Below are positions 11,343 to 22,224 of a DNA stretch of 64,000 bases, one piece after another. Below the pieces are notes generated by a model that saw only the letters and a program-made list of their open reading frames with translations, had not been told where the DNA came from and made no database searches. A program made the translations under genes and the position numbers. Each line of letters starts with the position of its first letter. Within the stretch, counting starts at the first letter, position 1. The DNA is from Actinomycetes bacterium (GTDB lineage Bacteria; Actinomycetota; Acidimicrobiia; Acidimicrobiales; RAAP-2): NCBI GenBank assembly GCA_021785695.1, contig JAJYEQ010000003.1, forward strand, positions 58,790 to 122,789. Direction: 5' to 3'.

Positions 11343-12291
11343 GCACACCTCCGTCCTGATCATCGGCTCGGGCCCGGCGGGCCTCACGGCGGCCATCTAC
11401 ACCGCGCGCGCCCAGCTGGCACCGATCGTCATCCAGGGCGAGCCGTCCTCCACCTCGGATCAGCCCGGTGGCCAGCTCATGCTGACCACGGAGATCGAGA
11501 ACTTTCCCGGCTTCCCCGACGGCATCGAGGGGCCTGAGCTGATGGCCAGCATGCAAGCCCAGGCCGAGAGATTCGGCGCCGACCTGCGCATCGACAAGGT
11601 CCGCGCGCTCGACGTCTCCTCGTCACCCTTTCGGGCCTGGCTCAGCGGGGACGAGGAGCCCAGCATCACCGCCGACGCCGTGATCCTGGCCACCGGCGCG
11701 CGATCCCTGATGCTCGACGTCCCCGGCGAGAGCCGCCTGCTCAGCCACGGGGTGTCCACCTGCGCCACCTGCGACGGCTTCTTCTTTCGGGGCCAGGACA
11801 TCGCCGTCATCGGCGGGGGCGACTCCGCCCTCGAGGAGGCCCTCTTCCTGACGCGCTTTGCCAACTCGGTCACGATCGTCCACCGGCGTGACGCCCTGCG
11901 CGCCTCCAAGATCATGCAGGAGCGCGCCCTCACCAACGAGAAGATCCGCTTCGCGTGGAACACCCAGGTCCTCGAGGTCCTGGGTCAGGATCGGGTGTCC
12001 GGCCTGCGCGTGCACGACACGGTCACCGGAGCCGAAAGCGAGCTCGACGTGACCGGCGTGTTCGTGGCCATCGGCCACGTGCCCAACACCGAGGTGGTCG
12101 CCGACCAGGTGGAACTGCTCGACAACGGGTACGTGCGCACGACGTTGGGCTCGTTCACCTCCGTCGACGGCCTCTTCGCCGCCGGCGACGTGCAGGACCA
12201 CCACTACCGTCAGGCCATCACCTCGGCGGGATCGGGCTGCATGGCGGCCATGGACGCCGAGAAGTGGCTGGAGGCCCGCCAGCACGGATAG
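11335..12291 (+). CDS. trxB: Thioredoxin reductase
   Basis: [82 protein letters not shown]. Confidence 0.96.
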
Positions 12292-12353
12292 GCCGCCGGC
12301 GCACCGCAGTCACTAAGGTAGTCACGCCAAACCAGCCGCCACCCGGAGGACCC

Positions 12354-12689
12354 ATGACCAGCCCGATCACGATTCTGTCGGACGCCACCTTCGACGAGAC
12401 CATTGGAGCAGCCGAGAAGCCGATGCTCGTGGACTTCTGGGCTGAGTGGTGCGGACCATGCAAGATGATCGCGCCGATCCTGGAGCAGTTCTCCGTGGAG
12501 CAGGCCGATCGCTTCACCATCGGCAAGCTGGATGTCGACAGCAATGTCGCCACGGCCACGCGCTTCTCTGTGATGAGCATCCCCACGCTTCTGCTGTTCA
12601 AGAATGGGCAGGTCGTCGCTCGCATCGTCGGGGCGCGTCCCAAGGGCGCGCTGCTCAACGAGATCACGTCGGCCCTGGCAAAGTCCTGA
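12354..12689 (+). CDS. trxA: Thioredoxin
   Basis: [40 protein letters not shown]. Confidence 0.96.
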
Positions 12690-13618
12690 TCACGACGGGT
12701 TGGCGAGTTGGCGCCGCGAGCCCGCAGATTCGCGAGCTCCACGAGCGCCTGGAGCGCCTGGGCTTCGGGCACCTCAGCGCGCTCGACGTCCTGAGCGATG
12801 AGTCGGTACGGCTGGTCGAGGCCTTCCAGCGCTCCCGGGGCCTGCGGATCACCGGGACCGTCGACGCCACGACGTGGGCCCGCCTGGTCGAGGCCGGCTG
12901 GCACCTCGGCGACCGCCTGCTCTACCTGGCTACGCCCCGGCTGCGGGGTGACGACGTCGCCGACCTGCAGGTCCGCCTCTCCCAGCTGGGCTTCGATCCC
13001 GGACGCATCGACGGCATCTTCGGGCCGCTGCTGCACACGGCCGTCAGCGAGTTCCAGCGCAACCGCGCCCTCGAGCCCAGCGGCGTGGTGACCTTGACCA
13101 CCCTGGTGGAGCTGCGCCGCGTGGCCGCCATCAGCGCGGACCGCTACCTCGTCACCGACGCGCGCGAGGGTGCCGGATTCGACGAGGTGGACTCGGGTCT
13201 GGTGGTGATCGCCGGCAGCAGTCCCCTGGCCGAGTGTGTCGCCGCCGCGTGGGCGGACCCCAGCCCGATGCTGCGCCTGACCAGCGACGATCCCGACGTG
13301 ATCGCGTCAGCCGCCAACCGGGCCGACGCCCGCCTGGTCCTGTCCTTCGCGCCCAGCCCCGACGTGCGCGGCGTGCGCCTGAACTACTGGGCCTCCTACC
13401 GATCCCACTCGCGGCGCGGTGAGCGCGTGGCCAGTGCCATCGCCTCCCGCCTGGCCAGCGAGCTGACGCTGCCCCGCGTCGAGGTCACCGGCATGGCCTT
13501 GCCGATCCTGCGAGAGACCCGCATGACGACGGTGCACGTGGAGCACGGGACCGAAGGTGACTTGACCCCGCTGGCCCAGGCCCTCTTGGAGGCCGTGGCG
13601 GCGACTCTCCACAAGTAG
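12686..13618 (+). CDS. CwlM-like protein: two peptidoglycan-binding-like repeats plus degenerate amidase_3 domain
   Basis: Two PG_binding_1-like repeats ([10 protein letters not shown]... and [32 protein letters not shown]) followed by an amidase_3-like fold; trxB-trxA-cwlM-parB synteny. No ATG/GTG/TTG start in frame; CTG at 12686 proposed. Confidence 0.8.
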
Positions 13619-13702
13619 CACCGGCGCGCGAGGCTGAATAACTCGCATCCGACCTGGAATTACTCCCTCAACTGCCCGTCCTGGGGCGCGGAACCCACAA
13701 CT

Positions 13703-13723
13703 TCGTCCACAAGTTGGGGATAA
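13703..13723. promoter_or_regulatory. Pair of DnaA-box-like sequences
   Basis: TCGTCCACA (13703-13711) and inverted TGGGGATAA (13715-13723), each one mismatch from TTGTCCACA / TTATCCACA. Confidence 0.35.
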
Positions 13724-13744
13724 CCTCAACGACAAGATGAGGTT
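13722..13744. terminator. Stem-loop in the convergent cwlM-like/parB gap
   Basis: AACCTCA-acgacaaga-TGAGGTT, 7-bp perfect stem between converging genes; no clear U-tract. Confidence 0.35.
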
Positions 13745-13756
13745 GAGGGTTGAAGG

Positions 13757-14683
13757 TCAGCGCACGTTCGCGATGGCGATGTAGAGCCGTTCGAGGTCAT
13801 CGAGATCCGCGAAATCGATAATTATCCTACCATTTCGGCCTTTTATGTCCACGTGAACCCGCGTGTTCAGGTAGTCCTCAAGCAGGTGCTCGAGCTCCGC
13901 GACGCTCGCATCGGGTACGGCCCGCAGTCGCGGCGCACCCGATACCTCCGGCTCGTCGGACACGATGAGCGGCGTCGGCTTGGGATCGAGGAACTGCCGC
14001 ACCGCCTCCTCCGTGGCCCGCACGGACAGCTCGCCCGCGATGACGCGGGCCACCATGGCCGCCTGAGCGGTGGCATCGCTGATGGCCAGGAGGGATCGGG
14101 CGTGGCCCGCCGTCAGATGGCCAGCCGCCAGCGCTGCCTGCGCCGCCTCCCCCAGCTGCAGCAGTCGCAGCGTGTTCGTGACATTGGCCCGGCTCTTGCC
14201 GACGCGCTGGGCCACCTGCTCGTGGGTCAGGTCGAATTCGTCAATGAGCTGCTGGTAGGCGGCTGCCTCCTCTAGGGGATGCAGATCGACGCGGTGCAGG
14301 TTCTCGACCACCGCCTGCTCCAGGGACAGCCGGTCGTTGACGTCGTCTTGGACCAGGACCGGCACCGTCTCGAGGCCCGCCAGGCTCGCGGCCCGCAGCC
14401 GGCGCTCGCCGGCAATCAGCTCGTAGGCCTCGCCGTCCTCCCCGGCGATCGGGCGCACGATCAGCGGCTGCAGGACACCCAGCTCGGTTACGGACGCTGC
14501 GAGTGCGTGCAGGCTCTCGTCATTGAAGTCCTTGCGCGGCTGGAAGGGATTTGGCCGGATGGCGTCGACGCGCACGTTGCGCAATGGGCTGGTGCTGGGA
14601 GGCGGAGGCGGCGCAGTCTCCGCGGTCGTCCCTTCGGGAATGAGAGCGCCCAGCCCTCGCCCGAGTCCTGGTTTCCTAGCCAT
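13757..14683 (-). CDS. parB: Chromosome partitioning protein ParB
   Basis: MARKPGLGRGLGALIPEG; NPFQPRKDFNDESLHALAASVTELGVLQPLIVRP; GERRLRAASLAG. Confidence 0.97.
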   Translation of the reverse strand: MARKPGLGRGLGALIPEGTTAETAPPPPPSTSPLRNVRVDAIRPNPFQPRKDFNDESLHALAASVTELGVLQPLIVRPIAGEDGEAYELIAGERRLRAASLAGLETVPVLVQDDVNDRLSLEQAVVENLHRVDLHPLEEAAAYQQLIDEFDLTHEQVAQRVGKSRANVTNTLRLLQLGEAAQAALAAGHLTAGHARSLLAISDATAQAAMVARVIAGELSVRATEEAVRQFLDPKPTPLIVSDEPEVSGAPRLRAVPDASVAELEHLLEDYLNTRVHVDIKGRNGRIIIDFADLDDLERLYIAIANVR

Positions 14684-15449
14684 TCATGATCTCCTCCGCT
14701 AGCGCCCGGTAGGCCTTCGCGCCCTTGGAGTTCGGGTCGAAGTAGGTGATGGGCTGTCCAAATGACGGGGCCTCCGCCAGCCGCACCGTTCGTGGGATGA
14801 CAGTTTGGCAGAGCTCGTTGGGGAAATGACGGCGCACCTCCGCGGCGACGTCACCCGACAGTGTGTTGCGCGAGTCGTACATGGTGAGGATCACCCTGGT
14901 GATCTGCAGCGTCGGGTTGAGGTTCTGCTGGACCAGCTCCACGATCCGGCGCAGTTGGGTCAGGCCCTCCAGCGCGTAGAACTCGGTCTGCACGGGCACC
15001 ATGATCTCGGTGGCCGCCGCGAACGCGTTGATCGTGATCAGTCCGAGAGATGGCGGGCAGTCGATGAAGATGTAGTCGAACTCGCCGTCAACCGATGCCA
15101 GTGCCCGCTTCAGGCGCAGCTCCCGTGAGATGACCGACGTGAGCTCCTGCTCGATCCCCGCCAAGTCCAAGGTGGCCGGGGCGACGAAGAGATTGACGAA
15201 GCCGGTGGGCTCGACAACGTCGGCGATCGGGACACCGTTGAGCAGGACGTCGTAGACGGAGTTCTCAAAGCGCCGACCGTCTACCCCTAGTCCCGTCGTG
15301 GCGTTTCCCTGGGGATCGAGGTCGATGACCAGAACCCTCTTTCCCGCTTGCGCCAGGGCCGCGCCCAGCGCCGTGGTCGTCGTCGTCTTCCCGACTCCAC
15401 CTTTCTGGTTGGCCACGGCGTAAATCGTCGTCCTAGCCTCTTGCGCCAT
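14676..15449 (-). CDS. parA: Chromosome partitioning ATPase ParA
   Basis: IYAVANQKGGVGKTTTTTALGAALAQAGKRVLVIDLDPQGNATTGLG deviant Walker A. Confidence 0.97.
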   Translation of the reverse strand: MAQEARTTIYAVANQKGGVGKTTTTTALGAALAQAGKRVLVIDLDPQGNATTGLGVDGRRFENSVYDVLLNGVPIADVVEPTGFVNLFVAPATLDLAGIEQELTSVISRELRLKRALASVDGEFDYIFIDCPPSLGLITINAFAAATEIMVPVQTEFYALEGLTQLRRIVELVQQNLNPTLQITRVILTMYDSRNTLSGDVAAEVRRHFPNELCQTVIPRTVRLAEAPSFGQPITYFDPNSKGAKAYRALAEEIMNG

Positions 15450-15528
15450 ACGCTTCTTCCCAACCGAGATCGGTGTCGTTCAGTACCTTGCCATTCAACA
15501 CGCCACCGCGGCATCCGTCAAGTATCGA

Positions 15529-15544
15529 CGTTTCACGTGAAACA
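15529..15544. promoter_or_regulatory. parS site 1
   Basis: CGTTTCACGTGAAACA; one mismatch from TGTTTCACGTGAAACA. Confidence 0.9.
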
Positions 15545-15626
15545 TTCCGTAGCCCTCTCTCGGCTCCGCAGCTATCCCCAGTGCGCGACCGAAAATCTGA
15601 CCCGCGGGTGCGCATTGCGCGCGCCG

Positions 15627-15642
15627 CGTTTCACGTGAAACA
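15627..15642. promoter_or_regulatory. parS site 2
   Basis: CGTTTCACGTGAAACA. Confidence 0.9.
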
Positions 15643-15928
15643 TTCGTGTGCGCCGGGTGTCGCTCGCCGTCGCCCGGAGTGGCCACCCCTTCCACCGTCC
15701 CCCAGCATCGGCACCCGCCGGCGGCCCACCCGTGCTGGAGGCGTCGTGGGGCCCCTGGACGGGCTCGCTAGCGCGTCCGCCGACACCGGGCATGCGCCCC
15801 GCCACGTCCCCACGACGCCGGACCGAGGGCGTGACCCTCCGGCGCAGCCAATGACCCGAGCGTCCCGAGCTGCCCGGAGCCCGCCGCCGACCCTGGGTTG
15901 GCCGTCTCGGGCCGCACCGCCGCCCCTA

Positions 15929-15944
15929 TGTTTCACGTGAAACA
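15929..15944. promoter_or_regulatory. parS site 3
   Basis: TGTTTCACGTGAAACA, perfect 16-bp palindrome. Confidence 0.95.
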
Positions 15945-16221
15945 CATCTCGGACCGGGGGAGAGGCCTCCTCGCGGCAGCACCACCCGTACTCCCGGAAG
16001 CACACCCGTGGTCCCCCGGCCTCGTTGGGGGGACGCTCCCGGGAGGTCCAGAAAGGGGGGTGACTCTGGAGGACCCTGATGCGCCGAGGGTCGCGCCCCT
16101 TGTTGACGCCATCGGTATCGCGCCCGGCGGCTCCACCGGGCCCACCCCCACGACTCCGGAGAGCCCCTGACCAGCTCAGCCACTCAGATTGTGCAGCGAG
16201 CGGTACGGATAGCGTTCTGCT

Positions 16222-16728
16222 ATGCCACTCATCCTCCGACCATTCGGTCCCGCTGATGAAGCCCCAGCACTCGCCGCAGCAACGGAGTTCAGTGGCACGG
16301 GTTTCGATTTCCTCGCCTTGGACTTTGACCCGCGAATGCCCTGGGAGCAGTGGACAGCCCTCATGGAGCGCTACCGACGAGGGATTGACCTACCCGAACA
16401 CCGAGTTCGAGGCGCATTCCTCGCGGCCGACGTTGATGGCCAGCTCGTGGGCCGTGCTTCGATCAGATTTGAATTGAACGAGTTCCTCGCTACCCGAGGA
16501 GGACACGTCGGCTACGGAGTCATCCCCGCGTTTCGTCGAAGAGGCTATGCGACCGCCATTTTGAACGAGTCCATCAAGATTGCCCGAAGTGAGGGCGTAG
16601 GCGCTCTCCTTCTTACCTGCGACGATGACAACGTGGGGTCCGCCAGTGTCATTGAACGATGCGGTGGCGTTCTCGAATCAATTGCCCTCGCAGACGACGG
16701 GACAGCTTTTCGTCGCTATTGGATCTAG
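16222..16728 (+). CDS. GNAT family N-acetyltransferase
   Basis: LILRPFGPADEAPAL...; GHVGYGVIPAFRRRGYATAILNESIKIARSEGVGALLLTCDDDNVGSASVIERCGG acetyl-CoA motif. Confidence 0.88.
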   Translation: MPLILRPFGPADEAPALAAATEFSGTGFDFLALDFDPRMPWEQWTALMERYRRGIDLPEHRVRGAFLAADVDGQLVGRASIRFELNEFLATRGGHVGYGVIPAFRRRGYATAILNESIKIARSEGVGALLLTCDDDNVGSASVIERCGGVLESIALADDGTAFRRYWI

Positions 16729-16744
16729 TGCCGTATCCCGATGC

Positions 16745-16766
16745 CTGACTGGCGAGTGGCAGTCAG
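16745..16766 (+). terminator. Possible stem-loop downstream of GNAT gene
   Basis: CTGACTG-gcgagtgg-CAGTCAG, perfect 7-bp inverted repeat 17 nt after the stop; no U-tract. Confidence 0.35.
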
Positions 16767-16794
16767 ATGGATACCCCTTCGAGCGAGATTGCCA

Positions 16795-16810
16795 TGTTCC
16801 ACGTGAAACA
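16795..16810. promoter_or_regulatory. parS site 4
   Basis: TGTTCCACGTGAAACA. Confidence 0.95.
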
Positions 16811-16874
16811 TATCTTGGACCGGGGGAGAGATGACGATCCACGTCCCCCACTCTCGTTGGGGGCACGGGAGCCA

Positions 16875-16890
16875 TGTTCCACGTGAAACA
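16875..16890. promoter_or_regulatory. parS site 5
   Basis: TGTTCCACGTGAAACA in second tandem unit. Confidence 0.95.
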
Positions 16891-17170
16891 TATCTTGGAC
16901 CGGGGGAGAGATGACGATCCACGTCCCTCACTCTCGTTGGGGGCACGGGAGCCAGGAATCCCCCGCACCACCGCCACGTGATACTTCCTGGTGGGAGACC
17001 ATCTCCAGCGATGCCGGCGCGCCGCGGGCGAGGCATCGCGCCTCAGCCACCTCGTCCGCCGCAGCGGCCGCCGTCCTGCTGGCTCCCCGCTCACGGTGAA
17101 TCGAGGGTGCGCGGCGGCTTCCCGGTCTTCGTCATCGATGTCACCTCACGGGGCGACTGTCCACGAACGG

Positions 17171-17788
17171 CTAGAACAGGGGGCGCTTCTGAGGAACCCC
17201 GACGCGACGCGGGTAGCGCACATTGGTAGCCGCATCCTTGACCAGGACGACGACGCCGTAGGGCTCGCGCCGCAAGACGCGCAGGCTCAGACCCAGCTCC
17301 GCCAGTCCCGCGGCCGGCCACCGATTCCCTTCGTCGGGCGGCTCCGAGACGATCAGCGCACCACCCACGCGCAAGAATCGGACCGCACACTCGGCCGTCG
17401 CCGCCGGCGGGGCAAACGAGCGCGCCGTGACCAGGTCGAAGGTCTCCTCAACGCCCGGCTGGCGTGCGAGAGCCTCGGCCCGCCCGGTCCACACTTCGCC
17501 TCCGGCAGGCGCATCAGCCTCGCCAACGACGTGCTCGAGGAACTCCGTGCGCCGGCGCATCGCATCGAGCAGGACCGTCCGGACTCCCCAGTGGGCGAGG
17601 AGCACCAGCCCCGGAACACCTCCGCCGCTGCCGAGGTCGAGCACGGCTGTGGGGGCGTCAGTACTCCAGGACTCCCAGGCCTCCCAGAACGCCGCCGCGT
17701 GGTCGATATGTCCCTGGACCGGGCCCGGGCCCAGGAATCCCCACTCCTGGGCGCTGTTCAGCGCTCGCAGGAGCCAGGGAGTGGTCAT
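17171..17788 (-). CDS. rsmG: 16S rRNA (guanine-N7)-methyltransferase RsmG
   Basis: VLDLGSGGGVPGLVLLAHWGVRTVLLDAMRRRTEFLEHVV; synteny parA-rsmG-jag. Confidence 0.94.
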   Translation of the reverse strand: MTTPWLLRALNSAQEWGFLGPGPVQGHIDHAAAFWEAWESWSTDAPTAVLDLGSGGGVPGLVLLAHWGVRTVLLDAMRRRTEFLEHVVGEADAPAGGEVWTGRAEALARQPGVEETFDLVTARSFAPPAATAECAVRFLRVGGALIVSEPPDEGNRWPAAGLAELGLSLRVLRREPYGVVVLVKDAATNVRYPRRVGVPQKRPLF

Positions 17789-17802
17789 CGGCTCCAGCGC
17801 GT

Positions 17803-18765
17803 CTACGCCGGTGAGATGACGATGAAGCGCCGTGGGTCCTCGCCCTCCGAGCGCGTCTGGACCAAGCTGTTGGAGGCCAAGGCGTCGTGGACGGCCTTGC
17901 GGTCCGCGGACGACATCGGCTCCAGCGCCCGCTCCTCGCCGCTACTCACGACTTCATCGGCCACCTGCTCGGCAAAGCGACCGAGCGCGGCGACGCGCCG
18001 CTCGCGGTAGCGGGCCACATCCACCAGGATACGATCGGTGCGACCGGTGCTCTTGATCTGGACGAAGGTCCGGGTGAGCTCCTGCAGGGCCGACAGCGTC
18101 GCCCCGCGCGATCCGACGAGCACACCCAGCTCAGATGGCGGATCGGCGTCGATGGACAGCTCGACCGTCTCGTCATCCACCTCGCGCCACGTCACCGTTG
18201 CTTGCAGGTTCATGGACTGGAGCAGACCCTCGAGGAACCCCTGGGCCACCTCGGCCTGCTCGGATAGGGAGACTCCGTTCGCCACGTCGCCTTCTTTCTT
18301 CTTCTCGGGCGAGGCCTTGCGGGATCGCTCCACTGGAGACTCGGCCTCGCGTAGCTCGTCCGCACCATCGGCGGCGGGACGCGAGGAGTTCGACGGAGAC
18401 TTGCGCTTGCGGGACTTGGACGAGCGCGATCGCGCCGGCGAAGGGGCGTCTCCCGCAGCGTCGGCATCCGTCGGCTCGGCCGACGGTCCCCCTTCGCGCG
18501 GCTTGCCGCCACCGCGGTGCGACTTGGACCCACCCTTGCCCTCTCGCCGCTCGGGACCGTGGTCACGCCGCGTCCGCTTGGGTCGTGGGCTCTTGGGGCG
18601 CACGCGCGCCCGCACGCGCGCCTCGCCCTTGACGCGGCCAAACAGGCCCGTGCGTGGCTCCTCGAGGATCTCAACCTCCGCGTCCTCGAGACCAATGCCC
18701 AGGTGCGCGATGGCGCGCGACGTCGCCTCGTCTACGGACTTTCCCGTCGCTTCCACCCAATCCAT
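17803..18765 (-). CDS. khpB: RNA-binding protein KhpB/Jag (Jag_N, KH, R3H)
   Basis: MDWVEATGKSVDEATSRAIAHLGIGLEDAEVEILEEPRTGLFG; KH LVGSRGATLSALQELTR; R3H-like RRVAALGRFAEQVADEVVSSGEERALEPMSSADRKAVHDAL. Confidence 0.92.
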   Translation of the reverse strand: MDWVEATGKSVDEATSRAIAHLGIGLEDAEVEILEEPRTGLFGRVKGEARVRARVRPKSPRPKRTRRDHGPERREGKGGSKSHRGGGKPREGGPSAEPTDADAAGDAPSPARSRSSKSRKRKSPSNSSRPAADGADELREAESPVERSRKASPEKKKEGDVANGVSLSEQAEVAQGFLEGLLQSMNLQATVTWREVDDETVELSIDADPPSELGVLVGSRGATLSALQELTRTFVQIKSTGRTDRILVDVARYRERRVAALGRFAEQVADEVVSSGEERALEPMSSADRKAVHDALASNSLVQTRSEGEDPRRFIVISPA

Positions 18766-18768
18766 GGC

Positions 18769-19725
18769 CTAACGTGCCTTTCTCTTCCGCTTCGTCCGCG
18801 AACGGCTCTGGGGGGCCGGCTTGGGACTTGAAGGTGAGGGTTTCGCCGCCGGACGCTCCTTCGGGGCCGGGGCCTCCGGCTCCGGCGCAGCGGGAATCTC
18901 CTTGGTGGCCCCGGGCAGCGCGCGCTCGCCGCCCTGACGTGTCGGGTTCGAGATCCCCGTGCGGAACATGATGTCCTGGGTGATGATGCGGATCAGGGTC
19001 GAAACCACCATGTAGAGGACGACGGCCGCCGGGATGATGATGTAGAAGTAGGCAAAGAAGATCGGCATGGCGCGCTGCAGCATCAGCTGCTGGCTCGGGA
19101 TCTGCTGCCCCGTCACCTTGTTACGGCTATTCATCTGGGCCATCTGGAAGTACTGCAGGGCCACGGCCACCGCAACCATCACGAAGAAGGGGATGGCGGC
19201 CAGCGCCGACGAGTGGTGGCTGAAGGGCTTGAGCGCCAGGTTGAAGCCGAACGACGTGATCTGCCCGTGGGAGGCGACCAGGTTGTGGTACATCTTCGAG
19301 GTCGTCGGGATGTAGCGCGGCTGGACGACCCCGCTCGCGGTCACGTTGGTCAGGCCGCGGATAACGCTATACAGGATGAATAGAAACGGAGCCTGGAGCA
19401 GCACGGGCAGGCAGCCGCCCACCGGGTTGGCGCCGGCCTCCCGGTACAGCCGCATCAGCTCCTCGTTGAGCACCTGCCGGTTCTCCGGGCCCTTGTACTT
19501 CTGCTGGAGCTTCTTGATCTCCGGCTGCAGCTTCTGCATCGCCATCATCGACTTCGTGCTCTTGACCGTGAAGGGCGTCAGGGCCCCCATGATCACGATG
19601 GTGAGCAGCGCGATGGCGATCCCGTAGTTGGGGATCAGCCCGTAGAAGAAGGCGAGGATCCACCCGAAGAGGTGAAAGATGGGCTGGAAGATCGATCCGA
19701 TCGAGTGGGTGATCGATCCCATCAC
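18769..19725 (-). CDS. yidC: Membrane protein insertase YidC
   Basis: [63 protein letters not shown]. Confidence 0.96.
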
Positions 19726-20021
19726 GCACCCCGCCGCGTCGAGCCCCGGGTGGGCACCAGGTCAATGCCGTGCGGGCCCAGGGGCCGGCACCGGCCGATG
19801 CGCCGCAGCGCCAGCCACGAGCCCCGGGCTGCGCCGTGCACCTCCAGGGCCTCGACGGCGTACGCCGAGCACGACGGGTAGAACCGGCACGGCGAGGGAC
19901 GCCCGGCCCGCAGGCGCTGGTACCCGCGAACCAACGCCACCAGAACTCGCGCGATCGGGGAGGACTCAGCGCGTGCTGGCACGACTGATGCTCTCTCGGA
20001 GATGGGTCCGGAGCTCTTCAT
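19722..20021 (-). CDS. yidD: Membrane protein insertion efficiency factor YidD (start uncertain)
   Basis: [59 protein letters not shown]; true start is probably internal because the ORF overlaps rnpA. Confidence 0.92.
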
Positions 20022-20295
20022 ACGTCAGATCTCTTGTTCCTATATCGCATTTGATCAGGTATAAGCCCTCAGGCATCGTGCCCTCGAGCTCCTGGAGTAC
20101 TGCCCGCAGCCGTCGCCGGATGCGGTTTCGCGCGACGGCCGACCCCACACGTCGTCCCACGGCGAAGGCCACCGCGACAGCGGCGTCGTCGGACTCGCGG
20201 GAGCAGTAGACGACCCGAATCGTCGCGCTGCGCGCCCGATGAGTCGACGCCGCCAATCGTTCGAAATCTCGGCGTCGGCGGACACTCTCAATCAC
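19966..20295 (-). CDS. rnpA: Ribonuclease P protein component
   Basis: [29 protein letters not shown] motif; between yidD and rpmH. Confidence 0.94.
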
Positions 20296-20298
20296 CGG

Positions 20299-20433
20299 TC
20301 ACACCGTGAGCCGGTGTCGACCCTTCAGTCGCCGTGCCTTCAAGACGGCGCGTCCTGCTTTCGTGCGCATCCGCGCGCGAAACCCGTGGGTCTTCGCGCG
20401 CCTGCGCTTGTTGGGCTGAAATGTCCGCTTCAC
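20299..20433 (-). CDS. rpmH: 50S ribosomal protein L34 (below ORF-track size cutoff)
   Basis: Reverse-strand translation [44 protein letters not shown], 44 aa, GTG start. Confidence 0.97.
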
Positions 20434-20589
20434 CTCGACCTCATCCTCGTCGCACCCGTTTGGAGCCACCACCCCGGGTGACCACGCATAGACCGGCCAT
20501 CTTATCTGAAGAATTCCCCCTCGTCTCTCACCGCTTCCAGGGTGTAACGTGACTCCAGCCCGACGCCCCTCACCCGAGTGCGAGAGGCT

Positions 20590-20598
20590 TGTGGATAA
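20590..20598. promoter_or_regulatory. Perfect DnaA box upstream of dnaA
   Basis: TGTGGATAA (reverse complement TTATCCACA). Confidence 0.8.
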
Positions 20599-20625
20599 TG
20601 GTTTTCAGAGCTGTGGAGGAGGGGT

Positions 20626-21996
20626 GTGAGCGACAGCGACGACCTTTGGCTCCGATTGAGCACATCCTTGAAAACTCAGGCATCTGACGCAGTCTGGTCG
20701 GCTGGCCTGAACAAGTTACGTCTTGTGGATTTCACCGGCGACGATCTGGTGTTGGGTGTGCCAAACCAGATCCAGCTCCAGCGCGTCCAGCAGCGCTACC
20801 TGCCCTTCATCACCGAGAACGCTCGGGCCGTGATCGGCCGCGACATCCACGTGTCCTTGACCATCGCCCAGCCCGGCGAGAGCGCGCTCGCCGAGTCCGA
20901 CGACGCGCCGGTCCCGTCGGCCGCCTACGCGCCCAGTGTCGACCGGCCCACCCGCTTGGACCCGCGGATGACCTTTGACTCCTTCGTCCCGGGACCCTCC
21001 AACCGGCTCGCCTTCGCGGCCGCCCAGTCCGTGGCCGAGACTCCGGGGCGGGCCTACAACCCTCTGCTCATCTACGGATCCAGCGGTCTGGGCAAGACCC
21101 ATCTGCTGCACGCCATCGGCAACTACGTCCACGAGAACTACCCCGACCGCCGCGTTCTCTACGTGTCTACCGAGACGTTCCTCAACGACTTCATCCGTGC
21201 GATCCAGACTCGCACCCAGCTGGCCCTCCACGAGCGCTACCGCGAGAACGACGTGGTCCTGATCGACGACATCCAGTTCATGGAGGCGCGCGGCGAGACC
21301 TTCCACGAGGAGATCTTCCACACCTACAACGCCCTGCACGGCGAGGGCAAGCAGATCGTCCTGACTTCGGACCGCTCGCCGCGGGACCTGGCCGGCATCC
21401 AGGAGCGATTCCGCAGCCGCCTCCTCCAAGGCCTGGTCACGGAGATCGACCGGCCCGACCTCGAGACGCGCATCGCCATCCTCCACGCCAAGTCGGAGGC
21501 CGAGGGGGTCCTGTTGCCCAGCGAGGTCGCCGAGTGGGTCGCGCACCGCGTGCGCGACAACATCCGTGAGCTGGAGGGCTCGGTGACAATGCTGCGAGCC
21601 TTCGCCAACCTGCGCCAGGAACCCATCACCCTGGAGCTGGCCAAGGCGCACCTCACGAATCTCGGGCACGAGCAGACGGCTCTGCGGCCCGAGACGATCA
21701 TCGAGGCCGTCTCGGACTACTTCGGCCTGTCGCCCAACGAGGTCCGGGGGTCCAAGCGGCTGCGGCCCCTGGTCCACGCCCGGCACATCGCGATGTACCT
21801 CATCCGCGAGATGCTGGACAACTACTCCTACCCGATGATCGCCAAGATCTTCGACGGCCGCAACCACACCACCGTGATCAGCGCCGTGGAGAAGATCAAG
21901 GAGCAGCTGCCCCGCGACAGCGAGCTCTTAGCCCAGATCAACCAACTGGCCAAGCGCCTCCAGGGCGACCTACCCGTCGACGTGTCAGCAAGGTGA
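20626..21996 (+). CDS. dnaA: Chromosomal replication initiator DnaA
   Basis: NPLLIYGSSGLGKTHLLHAIGNYV; VVLIDDIQFM; domain IV signature LVHARHIAMYLIREMLDNYSYPMIAKIFDGRNHTTVISA. Confidence 0.98.
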   Translation: MSDSDDLWLRLSTSLKTQASDAVWSAGLNKLRLVDFTGDDLVLGVPNQIQLQRVQQRYLPFITENARAVIGRDIHVSLTIAQPGESALAESDDAPVPSAAYAPSVDRPTRLDPRMTFDSFVPGPSNRLAFAAAQSVAETPGRAYNPLLIYGSSGLGKTHLLHAIGNYVHENYPDRRVLYVSTETFLNDFIRAIQTRTQLALHERYRENDVVLIDDIQFMEARGETFHEEIFHTYNALHGEGKQIVLTSDRSPRDLAGIQERFRSRLLQGLVTEIDRPDLETRIAILHAKSEAEGVLLPSEVAEWVAHRVRDNIRELEGSVTMLRAFANLRQEPITLELAKAHLTNLGHEQTALRPETIIEAVSDYFGLSPNEVRGSKRLRPLVHARHIAMYLIREMLDNYSYPMIAKIFDGRNHTTVISAVEKIKEQLPRDSELLAQINQLAKRLQGDLPVDVSAR

Positions 21997-22224
21997 GCAG
22001 ATCGTGTCGATGTCCCGTGGAAAATGCGCGCGTCGCCCACATCCAGCGACGCTTGTACCTTCAGGGTTGAAGGACCTGCCCACACCGCTGTGGACAACGC
22101 ATCCCTCAACGACCCACTCCTACCAGGTACTTTGCTCACTACCCACATCCCCACAGCCCTACTACTACCCACCTCTCTCCTCTATCACCGTGACGTACCC
22201 TGAGGAGTCGACGAAAGGCACGCC
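21997..22224. other. oriC: Putative oriC (dnaA-dnaN intergenic)
   Basis: dnaA/dnaN flanks; TGTGGACAA box at 22089-22097; further box-like GTGGAAAA near 22017 and TCCCCACA near 22150; trinucleotide run CTACTACTACCC at 22159-22170. Confidence 0.75.

Follow-up and report, generated by a model that had tools for sequence, protein, structure and literature searches.

Organization of the parS locus

The window, by which we mean the whole 64-kb stretch of DNA analyzed, lies within contig C9 of a metagenome-assembled genome (MAG; 1.77 Mb, 38 contigs, 92.6% complete) whose closest named relatives are uncultured Actinomycetes/Acidimicrobiaceae MAGs. The source genome and the relatives with which it was compared are all metagenome assemblies. 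Gene order in the window, checked with Pfam, is parB-parA-(parS)-rsmG-jag-yidC-rnpA ... dnaA-dnaN-recF, so that the parS cluster sits between parA and rsmG at a distance of 4-5 kb from dnaA. The features are as follows.

13757-14683, minus strand: parB (Pfam ParB_N, HTH_ParB, ParB_C)
14676-15449, minus strand: parA (Pfam AAA_31, 4.1e-61)
15529-15544, no strand: parS1, its position kept in most genomes of the genus, about 80-95 bp from parA
15627-15642, no strand: parS2, with an orthologous site in L078, L079 and L080
15925-16036, plus strand: diverged, earlier copy of the 80-bp unit (parS3 and its 3' flank, an inserted stretch, then a GTCCCCC...GGGGG block)
15929-15944, no strand: parS3, a perfect 16-bp palindrome
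16222-16728, plus strand: GNAT acetyltransferase gene (Pfam Acetyltransf_1, 1.2e-14), between sites 3 and 4
16748-16778, plus strand: one lone terminal repeat (right end) of a transposon-like family, found as inverted pairs in relatives
16791-16870, plus strand: 80-bp tandem unit, copy A (TRF period 80), holding parS4
16795-16810, no strand: parS4, inside copy A
16871-16950, plus strand: 80-bp tandem unit, copy B (one mismatch, T16928; a further GCCA follows), holding parS5
16875-16890, no strand: parS5, inside copy B
17171-17788, minus strand: rsmG (gidB; Pfam GidB, 1.1e-14)
20626-21996, plus strand: dnaA (Pfam Bac_DnaA, 3.8e-64), marker of the origin region

The hallmarks of a ParABS system are present, namely a gene for a Walker-type ParA ATPase beside a gene for a three-domain ParB, and consensus 16-bp parS sites near the origin; we read the system as an ordinary, canonical chromosomal ParABS. 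An Rfam search of positions 12000-22000 of the window returned no known RNA families.

All five parS sites lie within one mismatch of TGTTTCACGTGAAACA, where dinucleotide shuffles give a chance expectation of 0.00. A preliminary description of this DNA had reported five 16-bp parS palindromes between parA and rsmG. All five are present where it placed them, but only site 3 is a perfect palindrome over 16 bp; sites 1 and 2 are perfect across the inner 14 bp, and sites 4 and 5, which both read TGTTCCACGTGAAACA, have one asymmetric base. Because the sequence of sites 4 and 5 is identical to the B. subtilis parS consensus as quoted in PMC7614844, ParB is likely to bind the new copies. A scan of the whole assembled genome (92.6% complete), allowing 1 mismatch to the 14-bp core, found no parS beyond these five.

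The 80-bp tandem duplication

Sites 4 and 5 had been described as lying in two adjacent 80-bp units with one mismatch, and Tandem Repeats Finder (TRF) recovered exactly this arrangement at 16791-16950 (period 80, 2.0 copies, score 321; sub-periods of the same array score 122-123). The second-best tandem array in the 64 kb scores 85, and, sub-periods of the same array aside, the 80-bp pair is the sole tandem repeat in the window with a period above 21. The units are arranged head to tail and are 79/80 identical (98.75%), differing only at unit position 58 (C16848 versus T16928), and a 4-bp GCCA stands at every unit boundary, including the end of the array. Together with the presence of a single copy in the sister genome L078 (see below), the identity, orientation and 4-bp junction homology uphold the earlier proposal of a recent segmental tandem duplication, which is our best reading of the parS4 and parS5 units.

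When the 80-bp unit was compared with the whole genome, it matched both units and one further place, at site 3 (37 bp, 92%, E 5.5e-9). A second block homologous to the unit, GTCCCCC...GGGGG, follows site 3 (block families D1 and D3), and a 21-bp duplication lacking parS adjoins the same site. Site 3 thus holds an earlier copy of the 80-bp segment that has since diverged, a point the preliminary description had overlooked. Sites 1 and 2, by contrast, are older sites, conserved in position and each with its own flanks, so the proposal that the sites are not independent applies to the copied segments at sites 3-5 but not to sites 1 and 2.

The GNAT gene and transposon-like ends

Sites 3 and 4 are separated by the GNAT gene and one transposon-like end (16222-16778), also overlooked previously. 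The GNAT gene had no match in the parA-rsmG intervals of any of the relatives examined, and a search of the window for a left terminal repeat of the GNAT segment found none scoring above shuffles. In relatives, the end sequence of about 30 bp occurs as inverted pairs 0.4-1.8 kb apart, some flanked by 8-bp direct repeats. One genome, G012, has a GNAT gene with the same right end at another locus (L073, 852-1437), 75% identical to that of the window and broken by an in-frame stop. Since both elements recur together there, the GNAT gene and the right end probably moved together at some time.

The transposon-like family has terminal inverted repeats of about 25-30 bp, with CGAGTGGCAGTCAGATGGATACCCC as its right end, and a length of 0.4-1.8 kb; its members lie at 1501-2214 in L032, 1501-2376 in L158, 1501-1910 in L027 and 1148-2990 in L076. 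In L032 and L158, 8-bp AT-rich direct repeats (AAAATCTT and AAAAACAA) stand outside the ends. The stretch between the L076 ends encodes a secreted-looking protein; an obvious transposase is lacking.

Comparison with the nearest relatives

Sister genome L078 is close to the window in protein sequence (ParA 99% identical, RsmG 92%). Both 80-bp units of the window align to one single place in L078, the position of site 5, and the L078 interval lacks a GNAT gene. Across rsmG and its flank, from site 5 onward, the two genomes are 81% identical (19% different), compared with a difference of 1.25% between the units. This disparity, and the single copy in L078, indicate that the duplication in the window is young and postdates the split from L078.

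The relatives have copied segments of their own. L078 carries a copied parS segment linking sites 3 and 4 (94% across 84 bp with the core masked), sites 4 and 5 of L079 have a short flank in common (17/17 bp), and L080 has a 263-bp unit in 2.5 copies, the first of which contains a parS that has apparently decayed to CTTCTCGTGAAATA. The window, L078, L079 and L080 thus have the habit of duplication in common, but mostly not the duplicated sequence. Given that L078 and L079 also have five parS sites each, the ancestor of the window may have had five, and site 4 in the window lineage may have taken the place of an earlier site without raising the total.

In L078 and L079, remnants of the 3' portion of rsmG are located between parS sites; a search of the window found none. 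They perhaps derive from an older, larger tandem duplication into rsmG, of which such relics would be expected.

Recurrence across the genus

Each of 67 distinct parA-rsmG intervals from the genus was compared with itself (parS cores masked, E<=1e-3), using 335 shuffled intervals as the null. Self-similarity was present in 13 of the 67 and was in step with the parS sites in 12, whereas no shuffled interval (0/335) gave any. Copy-to-copy distances range from 66 to 633 bp, and the strict set of 12 genomes entails at least eight changes on the tree. Orthologous stretches of near relatives aside, the repeated flanks are not common to different genomes. The same duplication process has operated repeatedly, and separately in different related species, which had gone unnoticed in the preliminary description; comparison of the interval across relatives bears out its duplication proposal, with a single unit in L078 and parS-bearing copies elsewhere in the genus.

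TRF arrays with a period of at least 40 number three in 39.9 kb of intervals versus none in 249 kb outside, the latter being mostly coding. Among 55 complete intervals, the longer ones hold more parS sites (Spearman 0.78), from three in compact intervals of about 237 bp to between four and eight in longer ones, the eight sites of L091 being spaced mostly at about 118 bp. In the rest of the order there are 0 to 4 parS per locus, and copies in step with parS occur in 2 of 29 loci (L186 and L198). The 33 parA loci examined from other lineages gave no self-similarity, a weak control since most of these loci have few parS.

Two further observations concern individual lineages. The clade of L082, L087, L123 and L039 (L083) has intervals of 1.9-2.5 kb with six parS and no detectable copied flanks, reflecting either old duplications or another route of site gain. 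In place of the usual GTTTCACGTGAAAC, all three parS of L044 and most of the five of L068 have the palindromic variant GTTCCACGTGGAAC, and ParB specificity in these two may have shifted along with it.

Ends of the copied blocks and a possible route of site copying

Our main reading, to which we assign a probability of roughly 0.82, is that the window holds an origin-proximal ParABS centromere whose rsmG-side half grows and shrinks by recurrent segmental tandem duplication, the event that gave parS4 and parS5 included. Four things can be read from the DNA itself: the duplication, its being derived relative to L078, the earlier copy at site 3, and the recurrence in related species. At such a centromere ParB would load at parS and spread, and ParA would move it. 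In the window lineage, one parS (TGTTCCACGTGAAACA) together with 64 bp of neighboring DNA was recently duplicated head to tail to yield parS4 and parS5, and parS3 represents an earlier copy of this segment.

The ends of copied blocks were located by outward extension from pairs of parS sites, with cores unmasked, and were scored by hand. By this scoring, 8 of 12 genomes have a parS core at one or more ends of the copied block, and a core is found at 9 of 21 usable block ends versus an expected 14.6% (P 0.0016). In the window the left end lies 4 bp outside the parS core; there is no parS at the right end of that block, or at the block ends of L047, L080 and L119. As block ends meet a core in eight of the 12 genomes, it is possible that existing parS sites help to copy themselves. 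We infer that parS cores may often act as short repeats for slippage or unequal exchange. Taken further, the centromeres of the genus may be satellite-like, exchange or slippage at parS cores duplicating and deleting units while selection keeps a floor of about three sites; we put this forward tentatively, well short of even odds.

Alternative explanations

A contender only a little below even odds is neutral turnover, in which near-origin intergenic DNA duplicates and decays at random and carries parS along, with neither directed copying nor benefit. The sizes and positions of parS-copy units vary freely, as this would have it, and the decayed parS copy of L080 and the parS-free 21-bp duplication beside site 3 fit equally well. 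In C. glutamicum, moreover, one parS is enough: a single site gives near-normal segregation, and additional sites are thought to give robustness (PMC7083940). Against this, parS is overrepresented at block ends, all 12 strict cases (12/12) are in step with parS, and parS cores stay intact in the copies while their flanks drift.

Two other explanations would do away with the duplication altogether, and we consider both very improbable. One holds that the second 80-bp unit was made by the assembler. The sequence is indeed a metagenome assembly, and one of the related duplication cases, L122, lies at a contig end, but a distinguishing base separates the two units, and like arrays are present in genomes that come from several projects and were built with several assemblers. 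The usual assembler error with such repeats, besides, is to collapse them, not to create them. The other takes the GGGGGAG 3' flank to be a functional part of an extended binding site, so that sites 3-5 are alike through selection rather than copying. GGGGGAG does follow sites 3-5 in the window and is also found in L078 and L079; the remaining flank, however, differs among these three, the motif is not beside parS in L080 or at sites 1 and 2, and selection on a short motif gives no account of 79/80 identity across whole units. Recurrent segmental duplication is our preferred reading. Separately, GGGGGAG beside sites 3-5 was considered as an ori-to-ter polar motif and dropped, strand bias about the origin being absent in the window.

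Relation to known systems and implications

Some plasmid centromeres, such as F sopC, are tandem repeats, and these too have partition sites in tandem; the closest counterpart here is L091, with its eight sites at about 118 bp. Unlike plasmid centromeres, the arrays described here belong to a chromosomal system with the universal parS site and are irregular, young and species-specific.

With the chromosomal ParABS of B. subtilis, C. glutamicum, P. aeruginosa and Caulobacter, the window system has in common the same proteins, the 16-bp site, multiple sites per chromosome and placement beside parAB, near dnaA. The published accounts considered here describe dispersed single sites (C. glutamicum has ten parS in 35 kb; PMC7083940), whereas here several parS are visibly copies of one another, flanks included. 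New parS are tolerated mainly close to native sites (PMC5815017), and a permissive-zone model (PMC5815017; PMC7333895, section 5) likewise accounts for new parS surviving only near old ones. That model says where parS are tolerated; segmental duplication adds how parS arise beside old ones.

A review has posed as an open question why parS numbers vary and what drives clustering (PMC7333895). In the open-access literature, of which our coverage is incomplete, we found no account of chromosomal parS undergoing recurrent segmental duplication. What we take to be new is direct evidence for how parS clusters expand: one concrete route by which a bacterial centromere may grow, with parS copied together with the surrounding DNA. 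Satellite-like evolution, if true, would account both for the clustering of parS and for the variation in their number between species. The genus offers a natural series, with three to eight sites in one conserved interval and copies of varied age, in which the birth, copying and decay of centromere sites are directly readable and testable.
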